Origin: Monosporascus cannonballus | Taxonomy: Eukaryota; Ascomycota; Sordariomycetes; Xylariales | Direction: 5' to 3' | Assembly (NCBI GenBank): GCA_004154925.1 | Contig: QJNS01000084.1 | Span: forward strand, 186,001 to 250,000 | Length of the DNA stretch: 64,000 bases | Shown: in pieces, positions 29,875 to 59,472 of the stretch | How positions within the stretch are numbered: the first letter of the stretch is position 1 | Layout: every line of letters starts with the position of its first letter | Notes under the pieces: generated by a model | What the model saw: the letters and a program-made list of their open reading frames with translations, nothing else | Databases searched by the model: none | What the model was told of the DNA's origin: nothing | Position numbers and translations under genes: made by a program

Positions 29875-32170
29875 TTTGATTACCTATAGAAGGATCTTAT
29901 TTTGGTTTTTTAGGAGTTTTAAAAGATGTCGAAACGCTATAATTAATATATTCTGCTTTCGGTTTTTAAGATAAATATCCTAAATAAAATCTAAGTATTT
30001 ATTGATGGCAAACATAACGTATTTATATTTTTCAAAGTTTTTTTTCAAATTTATAAAATCGATAGCGATTTTTTGTTCTAATCCGGATACTCTTTTTTTT
30101 TAGTTTGCGGCGTATTAGCCTTTTACCTTTCGCCTTATTACATATTTGATATTCGATTGTTATAAAACCTTTTAAGCGGACTCTTTTTATATGAGATTAT
30201 AATTAAACGATTATTTCGGGACTTAAATAGCTTAATTTTAAATACTATATAATATCGTTACCGGTTTATATTAATTTCGTTATTTTTAGATTAACGTTTT
30301 GTTTATAAATAACTAAAATTATATAAGATATTATTACGTTAATATTTTCGATAATAAATTGATTAAATTTATTTATTAACGTTATAATTACTTAATTATA
30401 TTTATTTCGAATATCATTATTCATTCCTTTATTATTTTATTAATATCTTTTTTTCAGAATTATTAGAATAATATTAAATTGTATGCGAAATTTTCGTAAT
30501 AGGCCATATCGTACAAACGTAATGTTTTCGTATTGCTAGAGTTTTACAGGATTATATTAATTTTTTCGTACCTCTTAATCGGAACGAAATTGCTATTTGT
30601 ATGTGCCTCGTTATTTTGTACAGTAAGTCTAAAGTTCAGAAATTAGTTAATTAAATTAAAGATATATATCGTGAATCCTAAATCTAAAATAGTTGAATTT
30701 TTTAAAAGGTAAAATGAGGTATTTATGGCGTTACGTTAATTAATAATTAAAAAGTATGCCAGTATTTATCGTATCTTTTTTAAAAGTTAATCTGTTTTTT
30801 ATATAATAGTTTTTCCATAATTTTCGATAAGCGGTCGATATTTTCTTTTAAAGATTAATCGGCGGAAATTCGTTCTTAGATATATGTTATCATTTTATTA
30901 TTAAAACGAAAATTTTCTAAAGTTTTTTTAAGGAATATATAATAGTAATTAAATAATGTATAGTAATTAATTAGGTACGTTTTATAACGACTACTTTATG
31001 CGTTTAATTTCTAACGTTTTTATTTATTACCGTTTCGATTCGTATAAAAATCTTTACGGTTATTTCGTTTCGGCTTACGGCTTAAGGTTTTTTTTGCAAT
31101 TAAAGGTTAGTATTTTTGAGATTTTTCTAATTAAGATCGTTTTAATTAAGAGAATTTGCAGGTATCTTATAAAACGTTAAAAAGGTTATTTTAATATTTT
31201 GTTAACGATTATTATAAATTCGTTATAATTTAATAATTTACTAAGATTATTATTACTTTTTGATACATAATCGTGCTATTATTAATTTTGGCTTTTTTTA
31301 TTATTTGAAAAATAATCGTTTAAATTTCGATAATAAAAGCTAGTACTATATATAAATTATTAAATTATACGATCGTTATTTTCGTTTTCGAAATATTATG
31401 TCGTTATCTTTAAGCTATAATATTTTATTATTTTACGTTTTATTCGTTTACTTTTTTTTATTAATTTCCAAATTTGCTTTAACCGTTTGCGATATTCTCG
31501 TTAGGTATTGATTAGGAGTTTGTTATCGTATATTTTGCCGGATTCGCCTAAGTTAATATATTACTTTCGTAAATTGTTTTCTAAAAAAAGTTTGTTTTTT
31601 TAATTATTGAAAATACCGACTTTAGGATTTATTTCGTAAGGTCGTTAATATTTGTGCGGAAATATTATATTTTCGATTTTTATAAGTACATGCCGTAAAA
31701 ACTTAATTATAAGTTTATTTACTTTCGGTCGTTATTTTAACAGTATTTGTTAAGTAATTAGTATAATCTATTTTTTTGTTAATCTTTTCCAAAAAATGTA
31801 AATATAAACGAAAAACCGCTTAAAATATTAATTCGTATCGTATAACGGATTCGTTTTTTTAAATAAAAGGCTATATTAAGTTTTATAAGTTTAATATGCC
31901 ATTAAAGATTTGAATAAAGATCGATATAATTCCAAATATCAAACGCGTATATTTTATATTAGAAATTGGTTTTGAAATAATCCCAATTTTTAGGTTCTTT
32001 GTAAATAACGAAGGACGTTAATAATACGGTCGTTATTATTATTATTAACGTATTTTGATAATTATAATTAAAATACAGTTTATATCGTTTTAATAGCAAT
32101 TAATTAATTAATATATATTCTAATTAAGCGAATAAGACTTTTAATTGTCAGATATAAGGGATATCAGTTG
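29875..32170 (-). pseudogene. Copia-like element K, gag to integrase fragment
   Basis: RIP-degraded minus-strand retroelement that is not of the gypsy type. About 30126-30151 encodes Y-Q-I-C-N-K-A-K-G-K-R-L, resembling the gag-preintegrase C-x2-C motif of fungal Ty1/copia elements. Next comes I-A-I-D-F-I-N-L (30046-30073) and K-Y-V-M-F-A-I-N-K-Y, a plausible start of the integrase core. Upstream, near 31700-32010, a gag-like W-D-Y-F-K and W-N-Y-I-D stretch can be read. RT would lie beyond the H insertion, outside the window. Neither LTR was identified. Copia is the best guess. Confidence 0.5.
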
Positions 32171-33396
32171 TATATGTATTAATAACTAGTTGCAGGTGCC
32201 TGAAAACGCGCACTGCATTTTAAGGTAATCTAGTCCCGGAATATATATGTTCCGATCAGAGGGAATCTTCCGTATATGGGGTGCTAGAGCACCCCCTGCT
32301 AGCTGACAGTTCTTCCACCGTACGAACATGACTAGGAACTTCTTTCGGGCTAGGTGGCGACGCCTTGACGGACTCACTCAAGCCTCTGAGGCTTACGTAG
32401 CCAAGTCCCGATTACTATATACTCGATTGTCGGACCCCCACCAACAAGCGGAGCTGAACAAGTACTTTCCGACCACAGCCCCATGGATTATCTCACCGTC
32501 CGCTCAAGGTTCCAGCTATAACTTTCATGATATGTATGAGCATGCTATCACCGAGCCGACGAGAACCGTCGGCTAGATTACTGAAGCAAGTCGGTCTCTA
32601 TAACCAATTCTCGGCTCCTTTACTACGTGTTTTACATTGCACTAATGGCGGTTTCCGTATAATAATAAAGACCAATCGGTTCATACTGTCAGGGTTGCTG
32701 TGCAGGAACTCACTTTCCCCTGGACCGCCGTCGTCTATTCTCCGCTCGTACTTGACGGAAGACCTCGTTATCACCACTCTTGTTGCTTTCGAGAAAGTTC
32801 CCGCGACTCCCTGGAATTGGACCAATAACAGGCTGAATCCTGGGGTTGTAATTAATGTCCCCTCATGGGGACCGCTGGTTTCCGCCAGTTTTACATGAGC
32901 TGTTTGGGATTGATATCTTTTGCAGTTTAACTAACCCTCCTCATTGCTTCGGAATACACATTTATATTCTCAGATACCCAGCATGCTCCCTTCATGATTG
33001 TTGGGACTTGTGTAGAATGATATCGGCAGAAGTATGGCCTAAGCAGTCCCTCCTGCCATGCAAACCGATAGTCTGGCAGAGATCTCTCTCCTTATTGACA
33101 TCTTGCAAAGCATTGCTTTACCGGAAGTCAATAGAACGCTTTGGGGTCCGCGTGGGGAATCGATGGAAAAGGGTGCCGAGCGCCAAGCCTTCTATGATGA
33201 CTTGTATGACCGGAGAATATGCAACTCTTTAGTTCCATTACTTCTCCCCGGTATCTTGAGGGGTATACAGAACTGTTCTTGTGCGTTCTTTCACCTCTAG
33301 ACACCACTCAGCCAAATGCATGGTCATAATGCAGGAGCTCTTCGATGACATTCAAATCGACCAGGCCTTACGACACAACAAGTCACGATCACTCCT
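32171..33396. other. Island segment, no recognisable gene
   Basis: Base composition changes sharply to near 50% G+C and CpA becomes normal, so this stretch escaped RIP. Several frames of 60-125 codons occur on both strands, but none carries a motif I recognise. The most protein-like are 32328-32576 (plus) and 33058-33300 (plus). It may be the decayed remains of a gene downstream of the transporter. Confidence 0.5.
33058..33300 (+). CDS. Unrecognised ORF or remnant, 80 codons
   Basis: Plus-strand frame starting M-Q-T-D-S-L-A-E-I-S-L-L with a regular amphipathic look, then L-P-E-V-N-R-T-L-W-G-P-R-G and a charged stretch E-K-G-A-E-R-Q-A-F-Y-D-D-L-Y-D-R. Composition is protein-like, but I do not recognise the family. 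The frame continues upstream with stops at 32899 and 32914, so it could be the end of a longer broken gene. It ends 97 bp before the transporter pseudogene's end on the other strand (convergent). Confidence 0.3.
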   Translation: MQTDSLAEISLLIDILQSIALPEVNRTLWGPRGESMEKGAERQAFYDDLYDRRICNSLVPLLLPGILRGIQNCSCAFFHL

Positions 33397-35423
33397 TTAG
33401 CTAGGTACGCCTGCATTCTCTGGACGGCGATTTTGTCCTCCCCTTGAGACGCGGGGATGGCCTTTCTCGTTGCTACTGTCGCTGTCAGGGGGAGCGCCGC
33501 CGAGACCCTTGTCGGTGCCGCTCTCGGTGCCGGGGTCTCTCTTCATGTTGGTGCAGCCGGTGTTGATGACGAACTCTTCCTGGCCGATCTGCCGGAGGGT
33601 GGACTAGAAGATGGTGCGTGACGGCGCCCGCGATGGTGGGGCCCGCGAAAGCCTGGACGAGTTAGGGGTCGCGGATGGCGGGAGCGGTAGCAAGGCCGAC
33701 GGCGGTCGAGATGGCGTTCATGAAGGGGCTGGGGGGAGGGGGGCGACGAACCCCTTCACGGTCTTGTGTGACCGCGGGTACGCGATGCCGTACGCCGCCG
33801 CGTTGACGAAGATCTCCGAGATGGCCGTGACGATCATGGGGATAGTGTACCACGAGTACGACACCCGCGACAGCATGAACGCCCCCTGGGGCAGGATCTC
33901 GGCGCGCCCCGTCGCGTTGTAGCCGCACGGCGACGTCTTGTACACCTAGTGCTGTAAGACAGCGTACCTGGTCGAGCCGATGATGCCGAGCACGTAGCCA
34001 AACGCCGTAAGAGAGATGGGGCCCCACTTGATGCCGAAGCGACGCAGCAGTGGGTAGACGTGGTCCATGGCGAGGACCACAGAGAAGAAGAAGACATATT
34101 TCAGCTTTTGCTTGACGCTCTTTTGATTCTGGGGTTTTGCCGGTAGTTGGAGGTCGAGTAAGTCAACAACTGATGACGATACCGACGGAGTTAAGGTTGC
34201 TGAGCATATCGTTGGGGAGACCGTTAGCGTCCATGCCGGTGGTAAGAGCGTTAGCAGCAGCACCGAGGGCGCCGTCGTTGATCTGCTAGATGGGCTGGAA
34301 TAGGAAGATACTGTAGGTCTGGGAGGTGCGACGCACGTGGTTCACAAACTCGTCGTCGTAGCCGTACTCGGTTGCGCTCCCGGCAGCCTTGCGGACGCTG
34401 GGTTTGCCGATGCCCCAGAAGCCCTTGCGCCCGATGCGCTTGAGGCCGCCGTGCGCGAAGATGGCGCCGAGACCAGGCCGGAGCATCTTGGCGGCTGCTT
34501 GACAAGCATGTAGTTCAGATACCACAACAGGGGGGCAGCATGAGATACAAGATAGCGGGGATCAGGTAGGCGGCTCAGTAACCGACGTTGCTGGGCCGGA
34601 TCTGTGGTAGGAATACCGAAGCAGGCGCCGATGTTGATGAGCAGGTTATACCACAGCATGACGCTGCTGATGGACTGCTTGGGGTCGACGATGACCTTCT
34701 CGCCAGTCTTCTGTCGGTGAGAATGTGGGCGATCTTGTGCGGGCTATGGTCTATGACAGTGGGCGAGATGTTGAGCTTGAACTGCGCGGCGGCGATGGAC
34801 AGCATGTAGAGCGGCGGGGCGGAGGAGCCGATGGCCTTGCTGGACCTGAGCATGGGCGGCAGCGCCGAGATGATCATGATGACGTGGGCAACACCGCAGA
34901 TGGCGACGTCCCAGCAGACATCTTGAATCGGCCGTACCTGGTGTCGGCGAGCCAGCCGAAGATCATGGGCAGCGCGTACAACAGGAACTTGAAGGCCCCA
35001 TGCATGGCAATAGAGGTGATGGAGCCCCGGACCAGCGCGCCGGCCGTGCACTGTGAGCCCTTGCAGCTGGCGCCCGTGGTGCTGCCCCGGCAGCAAGCGG
35101 AGCGCGGATGAAGTTCTACACCTGGAACATCCGTGGTAGGAGGCACGCTCGGCGAACTCAACGGCGCACAGATAGTAACAACTTGCGGGCCTCTTCTCGG
35201 CTACGCAGCGCAGCGTCGATACTTCCTTCTTGGTCGGGATGACGAGACCTTGCCAGGTCCCACGCTCCTCGTCGTTCACGGAGTCTCTCACCGTGGCGGT
35301 CTTGTGAAGTGCATCTTCATCCACTGAGTTCTCCACGGCAGTCACGGACTCGGCGACCGTGGAGATTGTCGTGGCTGTATCCACTGATGGATGTTTAGTA
35401 CAATGAATGACTGACCAAACCAC
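33397..35423 (-). pseudogene. POT/PTR2-family peptide transporter, broken
   Basis: Proton-coupled oligopeptide transporter of the fungal PTR2 type (plasma-membrane, 12-helix family). The 2.03-kb span fits the usual ~600 residues. In order: N-terminus with L-R-C-V-A-E-K and A-V-E-F-A-E-R-A-S-Y-H-G; F-K-F-L-L-Y-A-L-P-M-I-F-G-W-L-A-D-T-R-Y-G-R-F-K; I-S-P-T-V-I-D; L-L-I-N-I-G-A-C-F-G; Y-D-D-E-F-V; I-F-L-F-Q-P-I-stop-Q-I-N-D-G; G-L-P-N-D-M-L-S-N-L-N; V-Y-P-L-L-R-R-F-G-I-K-W-G-P-I; V-Y-K-T-S-P-C-G-Y; S-E-I-F-V-N; a hydrophilic C-tail ending at 33397. The pieces lie in changing frames (at least six switches), with in-frame stops at 34286 and about 33946. There is no RIP pattern overall. Some switches could be introns (34095-34180) or assembly errors. 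Confidence 0.85.
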
Positions 35424-36128
35424 AACAGGGAGGACACTACTCCAAACGTGCCCATGGTTTAATTTCTGCGCCCGTTGAGACAGGAATTCGGAGGGATAGA
35501 AGCCTGGTCCCTTAGGTCTCTTTCCAGCTAAGCATGGAGAAAGCGGGTTTGAAAGGCCTACAAGAAAAGAGAAGAGTTGCTACTGGTGATGTGTAAGGTA
35601 AAGGCTTGTTATATACTCGGCGCTACCCAGCCAAGGCGAGATTGACGGGGATACTCATGAGCGGAATCCTTGCAGCTAGGCCCTACCATATCACGCGAGA
35701 GTGAAGGCTCTCGTCCTTACCCGACCTCTCGGGCGAAACGATTTTTACGGCCACAAGCATTGTAGCACTATCAATTAGCAAACTACCTAGCTCGGTAGGT
35801 CTGGTAAACTCTTCCCCCTTCCCCCCCTTTACCCCCAAGTCGTTACCTGTGGATCATGTCTTAGAAGTCGAACAAGATGAGGTCCCGGTCAGCCGGCTGC
35901 AAGGTGAGCCCTCGTTATCTCTTGCGCAATTGGCGGTCTCAGCGTTGCGATATTAAATCCTTATGCCTGCCCCAGACCCAACGCCCGGCCCTTACTTCCG
36001 GGACCCCGCCCTGTAAAGTGAAAACCTTCGTTCCCTTCAAGGAGGAGCTTGTTGATACTGTCGACACCACCCTCACCAGCGAATGATAGTGGGGGATTCC
36101 AAATCCTGTCAACTGCGATGCGATGACA
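35424..36128. other. Intergenic region upstream of the transporter
   Basis: About 700 bp of normal composition between the transporter start and the next unassigned block. It would contain the transporter promoter on the minus strand; a pyrimidine tract in plus orientation lies at 35809-35830. A 69-codon plus-strand frame (35877-36086) shows no recognisable motif and is not called. Confidence 0.4.
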
Positions 36129-36843
36129 TCAACCTCTCGATAGTTCTACCACCATCGCTGTTACATCTTCAGGTTGGCAATTCAAAAACACCCAGGTCTG
36201 GCGACAGGGTCTGATTAGAGCTCGGATAACGACTTGAAGGATCTGGTTCCCGACTTTGCAACCAAACCAGTCGACAATAATCTGTACCACCCATGCCGCA
36301 TGCGTATATGCTTGCACTAATCGACGTGGGATCTTGGGTGGCGTACGGGAGGATACATGCGAGCCTCGTGTATCTCTCACAATACTAACTGCCGAGATAC
36401 ATTGCCTATGCTCCTTTACGAATCCTGCGAGGCGGTCTATGGTTATATCAGTGGGAGCCGGTCTCTAAGTTAGACAGACATCTGGGTATGTCGGAGACAA
36501 ACGCTGAGGAAGAAGGCGAGTCGGCATCCGCGCTGTCTCGTCCTTCCCGGAAGATTACCTTGTCACCCCCTGCCAGGCACGCCTTCCTAATTCAGGCGAC
36601 CGCCGAGTTTACTGGCATTTCGTGTTTCGCCTGTGGCTATCTTGTCGCGAATGCTTGTGGCATCCTCGGCGTACAATTCGAGCAATCCTGCAGCCGTCGT
36701 ACACAGCCTCCTAAAATGGTGAAGCAAATATTGGGGTCCATAAACCACGGTATCTGGTCAATATGTAGGGTAGGGCACAAATAATGCATTATCCGCAAAA
36801 CAATCTCGGGCTCGGAAAAGATCATATTGCAATAGTGGCCCAC
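36129..36843. other. Island segment with unassigned frames on both strands
   Basis: Frames of 68-98 codons overlap here: 36129-36380 and 36637-36843 on the minus strand and 36488-36784 on the plus strand. The plus frame starts M-S-E-T-N-A-E-E-E-G-E and has an acidic, Ser-rich N-terminus. None resembles a family I know, and their overlap means at most one strand can be real. Possibly decayed coding sequence. Confidence 0.35.
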
Positions 36844-36943
36844 AGGATCCCTTGAAGTACTCTTCAGGAAATTCGCTGCCTAAGGCCCAGCGCAACGGTT
36901 GGCAATGCTAAGTACACGCATATGGATTTGGAATTGCAAAAGC

Positions 36944-37390
36944 CTATTTCGAGAGCTTGAATGGTCCCAAACCTGCGACTTGGAAGAATCCTCCTGGGTC
37001 ATATTTGGCGCTGACAGTCCGCAAATGCTCCTTGCTCTCAGGCCCATATGAAGTGATAGGATCCTGGTAAGTGAACATATAGTTCATATATCGATAGGAC
37101 GCGGATACATTCTTGCTCCGTGCCTCGTCGTCAATGTTTTGAAGGGCCTCCTTGTTGACATCGAATACCCTCTTGTCATCACTGGCACTTTCCCAAGAAG
37201 TGTAGAACAGCACCACAATAAGAGGACCATCCGACGGCTTGAGCCCCGGAGAGTTTCCGCCGCGAGCAATAGACTGCTCAATCATGGATACAGGTAATGG
37301 CTCGAAAGTGATCGAAAAAAAGAGCTGTAAGCACCAGGATGATTGCCACAATTGCGATTAATTCCACCGATCTTTTGCCCTGTGTAAGGG
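36944..37390 (-). pseudogene. FAD-linked oxidase (berberine-bridge type), C-terminal fragment
   Basis: The C-terminal end of a secreted-type FAD-binding oxidoreductase of the BBE/6-hydroxy-nicotine oxidase family. Readable are F-S-I-T-F-E-P-L-P, an A-R-G-G-N-S-P-G-L turn, S-Y-R-Y-M-N-Y-M, Q-D-P-I-T-S-Y-G and the family end-signature K-Y-D-P-G-G-F-F-Q. The stop is at 36944. There is no ATG: upstream a splice-acceptor-like CTTACACAG precedes about 37383, and no further coding sequence follows, so the FAD-binding N-terminal ~400 residues are missing, replaced by AT-rich sequence. Such enzymes often belong to secondary-metabolite clusters, but none is visible here. Confidence 0.82.
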
Positions 37391-37693
37391 AATAGATATG
37401 TAAGCGAGGTGATGGCCGAGTAATCGCAGACTATTCCAAGAAGTAAATGTATTAACAGACTTCTATCTAGGTTATATATGTATTCGCCCGGGTATGGGAT
37501 TTTGTGATTATCTTAAGTAGGTGAGTCGGTAAATAGTTACCGATATTTAACTATATTTCCCGTATTTTTTTTTATTTTCTTATGTTAATTTTTTTAAAAA
37601 TTAATTCATAATAATTATTATTAGTCGTATATTGCGTTATAATTAATACGGCATTAAATTATATAGTATAGTCGGGGTGTAAAAATCTCCGCT
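37391..37693. other. Island-to-AT-rich transition
   Basis: About 300 bp in which composition turns A+T-rich at about 37540. No gene or known repeat was seen; it ends at the TA target of the DNA transposon. Confidence 0.5.
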
Positions 37694-37695
37694 TA

Positions 37696-39632
37696 AGCCA
37701 AACACCCGGCCAACGCACCACCTCCTCAACGCCCCACCCCCAATTTGAGGCTATCGCCAAGCTATCTACATACTTCAAAAATCAATAACTTAACAACCAA
37801 TTAAGTAACCCATATCGGGTTTTTAACAAAATCGCACTATTATATAATCGGGATTATCAGTATAATATTCGCTTTCTTTATCTCCTTCGTCTTGGGCTTC
37901 GTTTTGCGAAATGACAGCGGAAGGTCCTTACGCGTTACTCTTTAATCCGGCCTTTACTTGCTTAACGTTCTTTAGCCGTACGAATTTTTCATTAAGGTCA
38001 GCTTTTACCTTCCTTAATTTCTTTAGGCGTATCTTTTTAAAGGCTAAAATTAATTGGCTATTATGATTTTTGAAAGCGGTTAATTCGTTATTAAATATAT
38101 TAAGTATTTTACTAATTTTGCAAAAAAAAAAGCCGAACGGTAATTTTCCTGAAAACTGGGTCGACCTTAATCAAAGCTTTTTTAAAAATCCTTATATCCC
38201 TTGAAAATTTAAATATATTAAAGCTTATTAAAGCAAATGGCGAAAAAAAATCGGGTTGTTATAAAAAAATAAGCCATTCGGCAACCGGTCGATTTTCCGT
38301 ACCTTCGTTCTTTTTTATATATTTATTTTTTAAAACCTTATCCCGATTAATAGGCCATATTCCTATCGCCTTAAAGCCATTTATTATATATCGTAAGACC
38401 TTTATAATCTTTTTTCCGGCCTTGGCGAACGTCTATAGGAAATCCGTTTTATCTATTGCTTCCGAAACCCTTTCGTAACAGCGCTCCTAGAATTAATAAC
38501 GGAACCTGCGCTTTAAAACGGAAAAAACATTTACATTAAGCGGCTGCCATACGTGCAATAAATATAAGAACAAAAAGATGATATAAATTTTGTTAATTAA
38601 GCTAGTCCATATAAATTCTTTAATAATATAACTGTTATAGCCGTCGATAATAAGGAACTTCTATTTTCGCAAGTTGGCAGGCTTGATATAAGGGATAAAT
38701 ACTTTTCGTAACCATTTTAACCTAATATCTGTATTAATCCAGCTATTTAAAAATATCGTAAAATACCAGTTTTTATATAGTTGGTTTTCCGTATCGGGAA
38801 ACTATTATTATTATACGTTAACGCCGTTAAATATAATTAACGAAAAAAGACTGCGTTTATTTACGTTAATACAGATTATAACAGATATTTAGGCGCGTTT
38901 AAAAATATCCTTTAAAAAATAAGTTTCTTAAAGGTTTTATTAAATATGAAAACATTTTCTCCTATACTTTCCATTATTCCAAATTTATCCGCATTATATC
39001 TATTCCGGGAATATATCTTCCGTATTTTCGGCAGAGCTAGGCGATCGAACAATACGGTATATACGATTACGATAACCCCGTTTAAGCGCTAATAATTAAT
39101 AACCCGACTCTTAAAAGTTTTAATTTCATAATGTCATTAAAAAAAATCGCGTTACATATTTCTTTTTTAGCCGTTTACGGCTGCCGGAATTAATAAAGAA
39201 GCATTACGCGTACGTATAAAATCGGGAATAAGAAGGAACGTATCCAAACTGGCCTTGGATTACGACCCATTTCGTTAAATAGTTTTCCAAAACCTTAGGT
39301 ACTTTTTAACGGTTTTCGTTACGCTTTTCCCGGGTCCGTATGCCGTTAATTTTGCGACGAAAATAAATACGTTCGACCTGGTATAACTTGGAGGCCGCTC
39401 GGATGGACCTCCTATTTGCAACCTCGTTAATCGCCTTCGCAGCACGTAATTAAACAACAAATCCCATATCGTTAAAATCGCTTAATTCTGAAAATTAAAA
39501 AGGTATCATTCTTTTTCCAATAAGACGTTATTTGATAAAGATATATATAATTGAAGTTTAGGTCAGTACGTTGGGTGTCTCGAAAATTCGGTGGGGCGTT
39601 GAGGGGGTGGTGCGTTAACCGAGTGTTTGACT
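37696..39632 (-). mobile_element. Fot1/pogo-like DNA transposon, 1937 bp
   Basis: Ends are ~54-bp imperfect terminal inverted repeats: AGCCAAACACCCGG... at 37696 and its complement AGTCAAACACTCGG... ending at 39632. Both share the core ACGCACCACC-CTCAACGCCCCACC. A TA dinucleotide flanks each side (37694-37695 and 39633-39634), the target of Tc1/mariner-pogo elements. Length matches fungal Fot1/Pot2 elements (about 1.9 kb). The inner part is RIP-mutated, the inverted repeats much less. Confidence 0.9.
37900..39530 (-). pseudogene. Pogo/Fot1-type transposase, RIP-degraded
   Basis: Minus-strand remnant of a DDD/DDE transposase with N-terminal helix-turn-helix DNA-binding domain. Near 39275-39460 one reads N-E-V-A-N-R-R-S-I-R-A-A-S-K-L-Y-Q-V (with one stop and a shift), typical of the pogo HTH. 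The first catalytic region is Y-N-A-D-K-F-G-I-M (38968-38999). The second is L-I-I-D-G-Y-N-S with its Asp codon at 38643-38645. The third, near 38527-38560, reads H-V-W-Q-P-L-N-V-N-V-F, with Asn where the family has Asp. Many TAA/TAG stops make it nonfunctional. Confidence 0.8.
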
Positions 39633-48841: not shown

Positions 48842-49189
48842 TATAACGGATTAATAATTTAATTAATTTTTAAATCTTAATTATATATATTTATATTAAT
48901 ATAAATGTTATAAGAAATTAAATAATAAATATAATAATATATTATATTTTATAATATTAAAAATACTTTAAATAACGAATTCAAATTCTAAATTAACATT
49001 ATTTAAATTATAAAAATAATAAATATATATTTTTTTATTTTAATTTAAAATGCTTAAACAGTTTAAACCCTTAAGCCCGTTAAGCCTTTTGAACCTTTTC
49101 GGCGGTTTAAGGGGCTTAAGGTGTTTGGCATTTTGAAACCTTTGAGCTAATTACGTAACATCTTGGCATTGGTTTGCCTTATTAAAATC

Positions 49190-49312: not shown

Positions 49313-49682
49313 AATAATAAGTTGTGATTTTTTAGCTCCGTTCGGTACGTTCTTATATAAAGTTTTTAAAATTTATTTTAAAAACTTATAAATATAATAA
49401 TAATAAAAAATATTTAGAAAATAATAAAAATTAATTTTATATAAAATTATAAAAACGTTTTTAAACCATAAATATAATTTTTAAATCGGGGTTAAATTAA
49501 TAAAGATATTAAAAAGAAATAAAGATTTTAGATTAATACATACTTTTTAACCGGAACGCCCGTACGGCCGCGATAACGCGATTATCGTATATAATATTTT
49601 GTTATAGGCTTTTTAAGGGTAATTCAATATGGGAAAAGCCCGTTTGGTTATGCTTTTGTCCGTATGGGTTATGGTTGTTACG

Positions 49683-50370
49683 TTATAGCCATAAGGGCGT
49701 TCCGGATTTAATTGCTCTTAACCTTTTTATGGTTACGACGTAATAACCATAATCCGTACGGGTAAAAAAATTGTTAAACGGGTTTTTCCCATATTAAATA
49801 TATTAGGGAAACCCGGCACATAATAATACGACCGGTAATTATGCTATCGCAACTATAAAGGTACTACGGTTACTTATTTCCAGATTTAAACTTAACCGTA
49901 TCGGCCATAATTTTAACCTATAAAAATTAAAAAAAATTCCTATATATATAATAACTTATATTCGATAAATTTATTAAGTATTAAATTTATCGGATTTAAA
50001 TTAATTATATTATAACCATAAAGATATTCCGGATTTGGTTACCCATAACCTTTTTATGGCTGCAACGTAATAACGATAATTCGTACGGGAAAATGCATAA
50101 CTGGACGGACTTTTCCTATATTGGATACCTTTAGAAAGCCCATAGCAAAATGCTGCATACGATAATTATGTTATTACAGCCATAAGGGCGTTCCGGACTT
50201 GGCTACCCCCAACCTTCTTATAGCTACGACGCAACAACGACAGCCCGTACGGGCAAAAACATAGCTGGACGGGCTTTCCCATGTTAAATTACCCTTGGAC
50301 GGCCCATACCAAAATAATGTACGCGGTATTTACGCTGTCGTAACCATAAAAACGTTACGGTCGGTAAATT
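49683..50370. repeat. ~163-bp periodic repeats with internal dyads
   Basis: A motif ATAGCCATAAGGGCGTTCCG followed ~30 bp later by TATGGYTRC-ACG-AA-AAC and CCGTACGGG recurs at about 49683, 50010, 50173 and in diverged or partial form at about 49846 and 50337, a constant spacing of 162-165 bp. Left of 49683 the same sequence appears inverted (about 49560-49682), so 49560-49870 can fold into a long imperfect hairpin. Confidence 0.7.
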
Positions 50371-52773: not shown

Positions 52774-53146
52774 TGTGACGAGCTATGAGGTTTAACCAAC
52801 TATTAAACCTTAAGTCGACGGGTTTATGTTGGCAGGAGTATCGTGGGAATCTGAGTAATAGATATAGTAACGTGTTACGTTTCGTAATGCCAAGGGTGCT
52901 TTAGGTAACGATGTTGTATTATAAGTTGAAGTTATTTAAATTATGGAAATAATAAGCGTATATATATATATATTTTTTTTAGCTTAATTATTTGTAATTA
53001 CGCCGTTGGTGGTAATTACGATTATTTGGGATTACCTTTAATTATTAATGATTATTGGCTTGGTAATGATTACCGTTACGTAACCCGGGAGGTGACCCGT
53101 ATGCTTTTGATTATTTCTTAAGACCGGAGCCTGTTGGGTTATAACA
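52774..53146 (-). repeat. 3' LTR of chromovirus F
   Basis: A 373-bp LTR, one of the better preserved copies. U3 carries the GTAATTAC/TGGTAATGATTACC dyad series at about 52990-53085. The R-U5 block with GTTACGTTTCGTAATGCC is shared by all LTRs of this superfamily. Confidence 0.92.
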
Positions 53147-53226: not shown

Positions 53227-53848
53227 ATGTCGTTTCGTATTTCCAAAATTCGTCGTATTCTCCGTTTTTTTATCGTTTATCGTACTGACCTCGTAAAAGC
53301 TTTTGACGAATTTAGTTACGAAATTATGCCTTGTTTTTATTGTTTTTCAAAAAACATAAGGTGTAAAATGATGGAAAACGTTTTAAGGTATAAGGAATAT
53401 GTTTATCGAGGTTAATTTTGTAATAGTACCGGCGTATCTATTTTTTCCTTATAAAATATTCGTTATAAGTATTAACGCTTAAAACGCGAAAAAGCGTTTG
53501 CCGAAAAGCGATTATTAAAGTTTTAACGGCTTTATTTTAAGACTTAACGTAAATATTAGAAAAAAATAAATAAAACTTTTTTTCGTTTTATTCGTTTATA
53601 TAAGTAAAAGGTATTAATTTATTCGAAAAGCGTTATTATGGTATAATATAGGCTTTAATTATTGAACGAACTAAAGGAACAAAAGCGTCGGGAATAAGAA
53701 TAATTGGAGGTTGCCGTTATGGTTGTTACGTTAGCGTATGTTGCGGCCGATTAGCCCGATATCCCGGCTACCGATTGGTCGGCCGTTAATTAGGACGTGT
53801 CCGTTATTATTAGTAAAAGTTTTTTAATAAGTACTAGGCGCCAATAAG
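53227..53848 (+). pseudogene. Opposite-strand accessory ORF of F with Zn2Cys6-like spacing
   Basis: Plus-strand frame, opposite to gag-pol, starting M-S-F-R-I-S-K-I-R-R at 53227 and open to 53415. It contains C-x2-C-x6-C-x8-Y-x2-Y-x6-C: if the two Tyr (TAT) are RIP-altered Cys (TGT), this is exactly the spacing of a fungal Zn2Cys6 binuclear cluster. The final Cys lies just beyond a TAA that could have been CAA. A Lys/Arg-rich, coiled-coil-like part follows, then E-Q-K-R-R-E, E-V-A-V-M-V-V-T, and a tail P-D-I-P-A-T-D-W-S-A-V ending near 53848, next to the pol chromodomain. At least one frameshift separates the two halves. Confidence 0.62.
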
Positions 53849-56800
53849 GTTTTTGGCAGGTTTCCAGATATTTTCGGAGTTTGGATGTTTTTTCCATTTA
53901 ATTAGATATTAAGTAAATTTATTTTGTTTTCGTATATCAAGGATTTTCTTCATTTCGTATATTTATTCGTTTTTCATTTTTATGTCGTTTTATATTATAT
54001 GTATTTTAATTGTATTTGTTATTAACTTTAGTAAAAGTTTTAATTAATAATTATTTTTTAAGATTTTCTTGGCGATTTTGTATAGACCGATATATTTGAA
54101 ATCGAGTTTTTTGTTAGGTCGTTTTGTTTGAATATTTTTTGTGGCGAGGAAAATTATTTTTCCCTTTTCGAAAATTAATTTCTTTAACCTTTTTTGGTTA
54201 TAGTATTTATTTATTTAATTCCGTACGAATTCCAGTTTTATTTTTATTTTTTGGTGTAGCTGTCGTCGCTATTTTAACGTAAGGATTGTTTTGATATTAA
54301 TTAGACTGTTATTACGTATTTTTCTATAAATTTTTGGAATAAAACCAAAATTTGTATTTATAGATATTATCTTAATATTTTTATGATAATTAATATTATA
54401 AGTTATTTATACGATTCGTAACTTTTAAATTTAATTATTTTGTTTATAAGTAATATAATATTGTAAATATATTTTTAAGGTTTAATTCGTTTGTTTTATT
54501 TATTTATCTGTTTAAGATTTAAATGTGCTAAATAATTTATGATTTAAGCTGATTTATGTTATTAGGCCTTATTAAAATTTTGATATAATTGTTAATTTTT
54601 TGTTTGATATAATTTTTATTAGTAATCCGTATATGTTGAAAATATGTTTAAAGAAAATATATGCCAGTTATTCGGCGTTTATATTCTTAAAATATGGTAG
54701 TAAATAAAAGAATTTCGTAAATTGATCGACGATTACGAAAATGCTATCGTAATATATTTCCGTAATTGGATTTTCTGATATAGGAAGTTTAGTAATAAAG
54801 TTAAATATGATTAAATATTATAGTCGCTTTGTAATTGGTAATGGCTGTAATTTTCCGTATAGCTTATGTTATCGAGCATTTATTTTGGCGCAAATATTGC
54901 ATTGCCGTATGATTTTTTATACCGTTAATTTTATTCTAAAAAAAGAATATGTTTATTAAAGTCGTTTTACAGTTTTATGAATTCTTAAATATTTATATAA
55001 TTAATATTCGTATATTTTTCGTATTAAATCCTTTTGATATTTTTCTGGTATTTATATCTTGTTTATTCTTTAGTTTTCTGGGAGCCTATTATTATATTAT
55101 TGGATTTTCTGATATATGTTGCTGGGTATTACTCGAATTATCGCAATTTGTCGTAAGTATAAATATCTTTTTGTAATATTATCAAAAATTATATAGTTAA
55201 TTTTAACCAATTCTTTTTAAAATTTAATTACCTGTTTAAAGTATTTGCTTTGCTATTTTTTGATTTTTTTTTTATGGATAATAACGAAATCGAAGTTCGC
55301 CAATTTTTTTTACATATTTTAATTATTATTTTATAAATTCCCTAGTTGTAATAAATCGGGTAAGATTTTAATAATCCATATAAATCTTAATCTGGTATAA
55401 GTTTCCTTTTAAAAAGTGCCTAAATTCTCGAAATGTCATAATAATAGCCATAAACTTTTTATTTAAAATGTCGTAATTAAATTCGGCTTTTTTTAATTTG
55501 TACAAAAAGAATATAATAGGGTATAATTTGCCTTAATTATTTCGTTATTCGATTATTACGCTTAACACATAATCCGAAATATTGGTTTTTAATTTAACTG
55601 GTCGGTTTGGATTATATATAATTAATATTGGTTTGCTGGTAATCGTATTCTTAATATTTTGAAATATTTTTTCCGTATTTGGCGTTTATTTAAACTTTTT
55701 TTTTCGTAAGGTTCGTTAGGGGTATAGTTATTTTGCTAAAGTTTTAAATAAATGTCTTGTAATAGTTGGCGAATTCAAGGAATATCTGTACCTTTTTGAT
55801 TATTATTAGCGTTTGTTATTTTATAATTACAGTAATTTTCTTAGAGTTTATTCTAATATGTTTTGGGGTAATAATATGTCCTAAATATTCCATTTCTTAT
55901 GTATGGAACTGATTTTTTTTACGTTAATAAGTAACTTTACGTTTTGTAAAGTTTGAAAAACCTTATGAACGTATTTTACGTATGTTTTTTCTGTTTTCGA
56001 AAAGATAAAAATATCGTCAAGATAGCAAACGACGAAAATATCGAGGTATTTTCGTAATATATTGTTTATTATCCGTTAAAAGGTTGCTAATATGTTTGTA
56101 AGTTTTATTAGTATAATTAAATATTTAAATAATCCGTATTTTGTTCTGAAAGTTATTTTTTATTCGTATCTTTTTTTGATTTTAATAAAGTTATATTTAT
56201 TTTTAAGATCGAATATTGTAAATTATTTGATTCCGTAAAATCGGTTTTTTATTTCCGTAATTAAGGGTAATAATATTCGATTCTTAATAGTAATATTATT
56301 TAGTTGTCGATAATTAACTATAGGTCGTAATTTTCCGTTTTTTTTAAGTATGAAAAATGTCGGATATTTTATTAGTAATTTCGAAGGTTAAATTTATTTT
56401 TTTTGTAACCGATTTTCCAGGTATTTTTTGAGAATACGTAATTCGTTTCCGTTAAGATTATAAATGGGGTAAAACTTTGTCGAAAACCTTTATTTAAAAA
56501 TTATTTCGTAATTTTATTTGTTATATTTTGGTAATTTTATATTAAGTTTTTTTTGAAAAGTTATTTATATTTGTAATATTATGGTAATATATTGGTTAAA
56601 TTTTCTAATTTTTGAGGCTATTGTTTTTATTATTTTAAATCGTTATTCAGTTGCTTTAGTTTCGCTTTAATGGTAGTAATAATATATCGTATTTTTCTTT
56701 GATGCTCATTTTTCTTTATATTTTGTTCCTTTAAGTAATAAGGTATTTGTTATATTTTTATGCCTGTATTCGTCGTTATTATCAATTAAATATTAAAATC

Positions 56801-59101: not shown

Positions 59102-59472
59102 TATAATAAATTATAAAGTTTAACTAATTATTAAACTTTAAGTTAATAGGTTTATATTAATAAAAGTATTATAAAAATCTAAGCAATAAATATAGTAACG
59201 TATTACGTTTTATAATGCCAAAAGTACTTTAGGTAACGATATTATATTGCAAACTGAAATTATTTAAATTATAGAAATAATAAACGTATATATTTTTCTC
59301 TTTTTTGGCTTAATTATTCGTGATTACGCCGTTGGTGGTAATTACGATCACTTGGGATCACCTTTGATCACTAATAATCACTGGCTTAGCAGTGATCACC
59401 GTCACGTAACCCGGGAGGTGGCCCGTGTACTCCTGACCGTTTCTTGAGACCGGAGCCTGTCGGGTCGTAACA
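59102..59472 (-). repeat. 5' LTR of chromovirus F
   Basis: A 371-bp LTR. The outer half (59310-59472) is less mutated than the left copy, with a perfect TGATCAC...GTGATCA dyad near 59375-59400 and CGGAGCCTGTCGGGTCGTAACA at the end, while its inner half is heavily RIP-altered. Confidence 0.92.

Follow-up and report, generated by a model that had tools for sequence, protein, structure and literature searches.

Antisense genes that lie between pol and the 3' long terminal repeat (LTR) have been described for several LTR retrotransposons. For instance, in the Boty-like retrotransposons of Botrytis cinerea a gag-pol containing a chromodomain is accompanied by brtn on the antisense strand (Zhao et al. 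2011, Virology), and a review on plant elements lists Boty among the elements with an antisense open reading frame (ORF) in this place, also in Sclerotinia. Moreover, a transcript from Monilinia resembles a truncated Pol and BRTN. The plant elements Grande (gene23), RIRE2, Retand and PvRetro13 possess antisense ORFs in the same position and orientation, and some of their products are nuclear. Apart from an SMC domain (PvRetro13) and a transposase_28 domain (Retand), no clear similarity to known proteins is reported for the plant products in the review, according to which the roles of genes placed in this way are still undetermined. The relevant passages of the review and those on brtn mention no zinc cluster (for the sources drawn on, in part, see PMC8365987, PMC7264820, PMC4227169, PMC5987419, PMC3441728, PMC2864245, PMC10787394 and PMC3248453). 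Here, we describe a gene of this kind in the LTR retrotransposon F, which is located in a 64-kb stretch of the Monosporascus cannonballus genome (contig QJNS01000084.1; hereafter the window). The gag-pol of F is on the minus strand and the antisense frame on the plus strand. Among the families of this genome, the gene has a nearly constant place beside an LTR, bears the marks of coding constraint and ancestrally encoded six Cys residues. It resembles brtn in lying between pol and the 3' LTR, a likeness of position, and no Botrytis name occurs among the 22 relatives listed in this study. F is a chromovirus, unlike Retand, which belongs to a non-chromovirus lineage. The first-pass annotation had regarded a retrotransposon with its own transcription-factor-like protein as notable for a possible self-regulation or silencing. 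This judgement has to be divided: antisense genes at this position were already known from brtn and the plant elements, whereas their zinc-cluster-like reading appears to be the new part. In the literature searched, no paper assigns a zinc cluster to the product of such a gene, though Zhao et al. (2011), known here through citing papers, may itself do so.

Translation of the plus strand between the chromodomain and the 3' LTR of F yields a frame with the spacing C(36)-x2-C(39)-x6-C(46)-x8-Y(55)-x2-Y(58)-x6-C(65), in agreement with the strand, coordinates and spacing that the first-pass annotation had given. In the window, the gene survives only as a dead relic, disrupted by repeat-induced point mutation (RIP). 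It contains 14 stops in this frame over 622 bases, the end stop counted, and one of them (codon 63) separates the fifth from the sixth site. A chance frame in AT-rich sequence would look much like this, and the stop density gives no sign of a coding frame: the 14 stops are no fewer than the 12-17 in the other frames, and mean stop counts range from 13.7 to 17.1 across the six frames, with 14.0 in the coding frame. However, the six-site pattern itself speaks against chance. Reading all six frames of the window through stops gives two occurrences of the pattern when either Cys or Tyr is allowed at each site, and only the occurrence in the antisense frame has any Cys. In 300 shuffles of the whole window (first-order Markov, by 1-kb block), the mean number of Cys-or-Tyr patterns was 0.057, and a pattern with at least four Cys was obtained in 1 of the 300.

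To describe the family within the genome, the best 40 of 962 candidates from a genome search were scored; they are, the window itself apart, the nearest copies and 81-86% identical to the query. All 40 copies are AT-rich, with a TA/AT ratio of 1.14-1.44. At the six sites, 236 of the 240 codons specify Cys or Tyr, and Cys codons are found in 21, 15, 18, 3, 5 and 14 of the 40 copies at sites 1 to 6, respectively; the two sites that are Tyr in the window are thus still Cys in three and five copies. The stops of the 40 copies comprise 448 TAA, 101 TAG and 8 TGA codons, end stop included, an excess of TAA and TAG that would follow from RIP acting on CAA, CAG and TGG. Protein searches uncovered sister copies in the same genome with 46-57% identity, some of which are less mutated. 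One of them, L084, has a GC content of 0.45 and five stops; its site 1 is Tyr and its other five sites are Cys. Furthermore, the frame is open in a divergent copy (G000:C132:112115-112612, minus strand), which runs for 220 amino acids (aa) with no stop in this RIP-ridden genome. This answers the first-pass annotation, which would have been given up if no less-mutated copy had an open frame, though in the 111 bases of this copy that were read, sites 1 and 2 are Tyr, the other four sites are Cys and the last spacing is 7 instead of 6.

Relatives of the protein also exist in other fungal genera. A protein search with three RIP-changed copies gave no match at an E-value of 0.01 or below among 1209 candidates. 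With L084 as the query, two Thyridium proteins were found (E 3.9e-22 and 2.8e-13), and the first of these retrieved 22 proteins, itself included, among 40 candidates. The relatives (P0001-P0022) come from Thyridium, Corynascus similis, Verticillium dahliae, Apiospora rasikravindrae and Cryphonectria parasitica, with further entries from lgn, ena and jgi. In two of them (P0002 and P0022) the first half of the six-Cys region is missing, which leaves 20 that can be counted; P0008 and P0021 are not independent because they have the N-terminus in common. All six Cys are present at the same spacing in 19 of the 20 spanning relatives, the exception being P0013 from Cryphonectria, which has Tyr at site 1. 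The comparison of these proteins indicates that Cys is ancestral and that the two Tyr are derived, since 19 of 20 relatives in other fungi carry all six Cys. Thus, unmutated relatives exist in other fungi, the proposal of the first-pass annotation that the protein had six Cys before RIP is borne out, and the ancestral Tyr that would have spoken against it are not seen in the family alignment. The same relatives, together with the codon-position bias described below and the shuffles, led us to reject the chance frame, which we consider next to impossible. Viral contigs scanned with the alignment of the 22 members (A2) contained nine pattern matches and no relative.

Four relatives (P0011, P0016, P0020 and P0022) have an unconserved insertion directly after a GVPVSS stretch, P0021 is identical to P0008 as far as this point and then ends, and the window copy has no insertion there. 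In the simplest reading of these protein sequences, which alone were compared, the insertion would be an intron left unspliced by some gene callers. Since replication passes through the sense RNA, an intron of an antisense gene would not be lost in it.

RIP produces transitions only, and transversions are therefore a cleaner record of the earlier history of the gene. Between the window and L084, 19, 13 and 49 transversions fall on codon positions 1, 2 and 3, respectively. Three family copies compared with ten sister copies give summed counts of 573, 389 and 1172, from pairs that are non-independent. The concentration at third positions indicates that the frame was under protein selection. This bears on the idea that the antisense RNA, and not a protein, is the working product, which would pair with the gag-pol RNA and feed RNA silencing or limit expression. 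Such a role is discussed for plant elements in parts of the review cited above, and it would suit two genes that converge with overlapping ends. However, the third-position transversions and the conservation of proteins of 186-222 aa between fungal genera argue that a protein was selected, and we regard an RNA product as improbable.

The position of the gene is nearly constant among the places measured in this genome: an LTR lies 64-98 bp ahead of the frame in 60 of 62 distinct places, the exceptions being L054 and L069. The measurement covered 68 loci from the genome searches, six of which repeat a place, and these are the best matches listed and not a random sample. Alternatively, one lineage of elements in this genome might have captured a host family of transcription-factor-like genes, with the relatives elsewhere being host genes. 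P0005, P0010 and P0013 are indeed annotated on long contigs. This explanation also seems improbable to us, given the LTR that adjoins the gene at 60 of the 62 places and the fact that three of the four Thyridium entries are on contigs of <750 bases, as collapsed repeats may be.

The features of F are compiled in the table. The two LTRs share 79.9% identity. F is a chromovirus: its two LTRs flank pieces of reverse transcriptase and RNase H, and pol ends in a chromodomain, which was scored in L089, a sister copy with fewer mutations (L089:1416-1544, Pfam Chromo 49.9 bits, cut-off 25.1), and recognised by eye in the window. Three of the six minus-strand pieces of the window submitted to Pfam gave no match. 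The antisense gene runs tail-to-tail into the chromodomain end of pol. In the window, about 35 bp at the end of the antisense frame also belong to the chromodomain remains, as placed by eye, and the chromodomain piece of L089 likewise overlaps the end of its frame. LTR comparison, Pfam and the mapping of this overlap thus uphold the arrangement given in the first-pass annotation, namely an antisense frame in a chromovirus, between chromodomain and 3' LTR and convergent with pol.

Features of element F in the 64-kb window of M. cannonballus
Feature	Position	Strand	Basis
Antisense frame (start 53227, stop 53845-53847), 206 codons plus stop; remnant of the gene for a protein with zinc-cluster-like region and long helix	53227..53847	+	Translation, 40 aligned copies, relatives P0001-P0022
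Six-Cys region, codons 36, 39, 46, 55, 58 and 65 (two are Tyr here)	53332..53421	+	Translation, copies, relatives
Putative counterpart of the relatives' long helix	53440..53709	+	Approximate edges, placed from the helix 70-159 of the P0004 model and the alignment of relatives
3' LTR	52784..53146	-	LTR pair comparison; 80 bases separate LTR and ATG of the antisense frame
5' LTR	59112..59472	-	LTR pair comparison
End of pol with chromodomain remains	53813..53959	-	Identified by eye; the equivalent in sister copy L089 scores against Pfam Chromo
Integrase C-terminal SH3-like piece	54047..54214	-	SH3_Tf2-1 25.9 bits, below the cut-off of 30
RNase H piece	55371..55532	-	RT_RNaseH 37.2 bits, above the Pfam cut-off
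Reverse transcriptase piece	55884..56075	-	RVT_1 39.2 bits, above the Pfam cut-off

Three further observations were made in the window. A third, more diverged stretch resembling the LTR of F (63%) at positions 48851-49045 is probably what remains of an older LTR. Positions 49678-50352 hold three direct repeats of 184 nt each, 67-70% alike and with start spacings of 327 and 164. Moreover, a GC-rich island (GC up to 0.59) at positions 32001-38000 within AT-rich sequence probably contains host genes.

The protein is approximately 200 aa long (186-222 aa across the genera) and consists of a zinc-cluster-like region, a long helix (residues 70-159 in the model of P0004) and usually, though not universally, an acidic tail, in which a DVIDW-like motif is conserved. 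The N-terminus is net basic in 17 of 19 relatives, the loop after the first Cys pair is net positive in 15 of 19, and the second loop is basic. Zn2Cys6 clusters are defined by the spacing C-x2-C-x6-C-x5-12-C-x2-C-x6-8-C, which 19 of the 20 spanning relatives satisfy; in the window, sites 4 and 5 are Tyr. When one relative was modelled from its single sequence and the model compared with the PDB by Foldseek, all 27 hits were Gal4-class or kinetochore (CBF3-type) chains with weak E-values; zinc-cluster chains also filled 13 of 13 rows of a further listing, all of them weak. The Pfam profile Zn_clus (PF00172) is found at an E-value of 1 or less in 15 of the 22 relatives, with scores from eight members.

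Several results weigh against a Gal4-type cluster. Zn_clus stays under its gathering cut-off in every relative (best P0009, 18.1 vs 21 bits, E 0.0028), it is not matched in P0004, P0012 and P0020, and in P0001 the match covers half of the profile. An alignment-based model yielded zinc-cluster chains in none of five Foldseek hits and, in a second look, in three of five rows, all weak. The predicted template modelling (pTM) scores of the two models are 0.36 and 0.41, the first loop is not basic in 4 of the 19 relatives (three Thyridium members and P0020), and a PDB sequence search with the profile A2 returned no zinc-cluster protein. Neither did PDB sequence searches with the window piece and with P0001, and the RIP-changed piece of the window has no Pfam match. 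Among the 18 NCBIfam families listed for the 22 members of A2, none is of the zinc-cluster type, and no fungal transcription factor middle domain is among the Pfam matches listed (25 of 55 families in one listing). Hence, the Gal4-type cluster of the first-pass annotation is backed by the spacing and the single-sequence model and left without backing by the Zn_clus score and the first comparison of the alignment-based model. The fold of the protein is predicted to be a Gal4-like Zn2Cys6 cluster. With Gal4, Put3, Leu3 and Hap1 it would share the six-Cys spacing, the long helix behind it and the fold of one model; it differs from these Zn2Cys6 factors in falling below the Pfam cut-off, in its small size and in being encoded antisense in a retrotransposon.

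We favour the explanation that F represents a fungal chromovirus family with an antisense accessory gene for a Gal4-like DNA-binding protein that regulates the element's own LTRs, and we give it an even chance of being right. The gene, placed antisense between pol and the 3' LTR, would most likely be transcribed from a start in or beside that LTR. The product would have a weakly basic N-terminus, a Zn2Cys6-type cluster, a long helix that may form a coiled coil and usually an acidic tail with the DVIDW-like motif. It would most likely dimerise, bind the LTRs of its own element in the nucleus and set their transcription, probably as an activator. A zinc cluster followed by a coiled coil and then an acidic tail is the layout of Gal4-class activators. 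A dimer acting on its own LTRs is the simplest model. HBZ of human T-cell leukaemia virus type 1 (HTLV-1), an antisense gene expressed from the 3' LTR and encoding a dimeric protein of DNA-binding type, may serve as a working analogy, with no descent claimed; HBZ is a basic leucine zipper protein and not a zinc cluster. The plant review mentions an antisense promoter in the 3' LTR of HTLV.

The same protein could instead be a DNA-binding or nuclear adaptor with no transcriptional role, which would act beside the chromodomain and bring the pre-integration complex into the nucleus or onto selected sites in chromosomal DNA. The net basic N-terminus (17 of 19), the basic second loop and a long helix suited to protein contacts would fit such an adaptor, and nuclear roles are raised by passages of the review on plant antisense ORFs. 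However, the chromodomain is already a chromatin-targeting module, and the acidic tail with its DVIDW-like motif better suits an activation region, by resemblance only. We therefore consider the adaptor rather unlikely, though less so than an RNA product or a captured host gene.

Zn2Cys6 clusters bind two zinc ions and CGG-type DNA. Regulation of the LTRs by the protein would call for target sites, and here the evidence weighs against the explanation we favour: no conserved CGG/CCG pair is evident in 40 LTRs. Single triplets are kept to some extent, namely the CGG triplets at 52819 and 53125 in 33 and 30 of the 40, respectively, and the CCG at 53097 in 29. As a separate observation, the LTR stretches 52789-52827 and 53076-53083 are nearly unchanged in 40 RIP-mutated copies; they include the palindrome-like GGTTTAACC and TTACGTAA and may be regulatory or LTR-end sites.

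A wider generalisation is more doubtful, namely that chromoviruses of filamentous ascomycetes commonly encode their own antisense Gal4-type factor, which drives or gates the LTR promoters, and that the antisense strand lets an intron persist. Some of the hypothetical proteins in the annotation of Verticillium, Apiospora, Corynascus, Cryphonectria and Thyridium may be element genes. The zinc-cluster-like reading would give one such family of antisense genes a concrete, testable biochemical role, and it points to fungal retroelements that may have a DNA-binding regulator of their own. If true, F and its kin would possess an element-owned gene switch built on the characteristic DNA-binding domain of the fungal kingdom.
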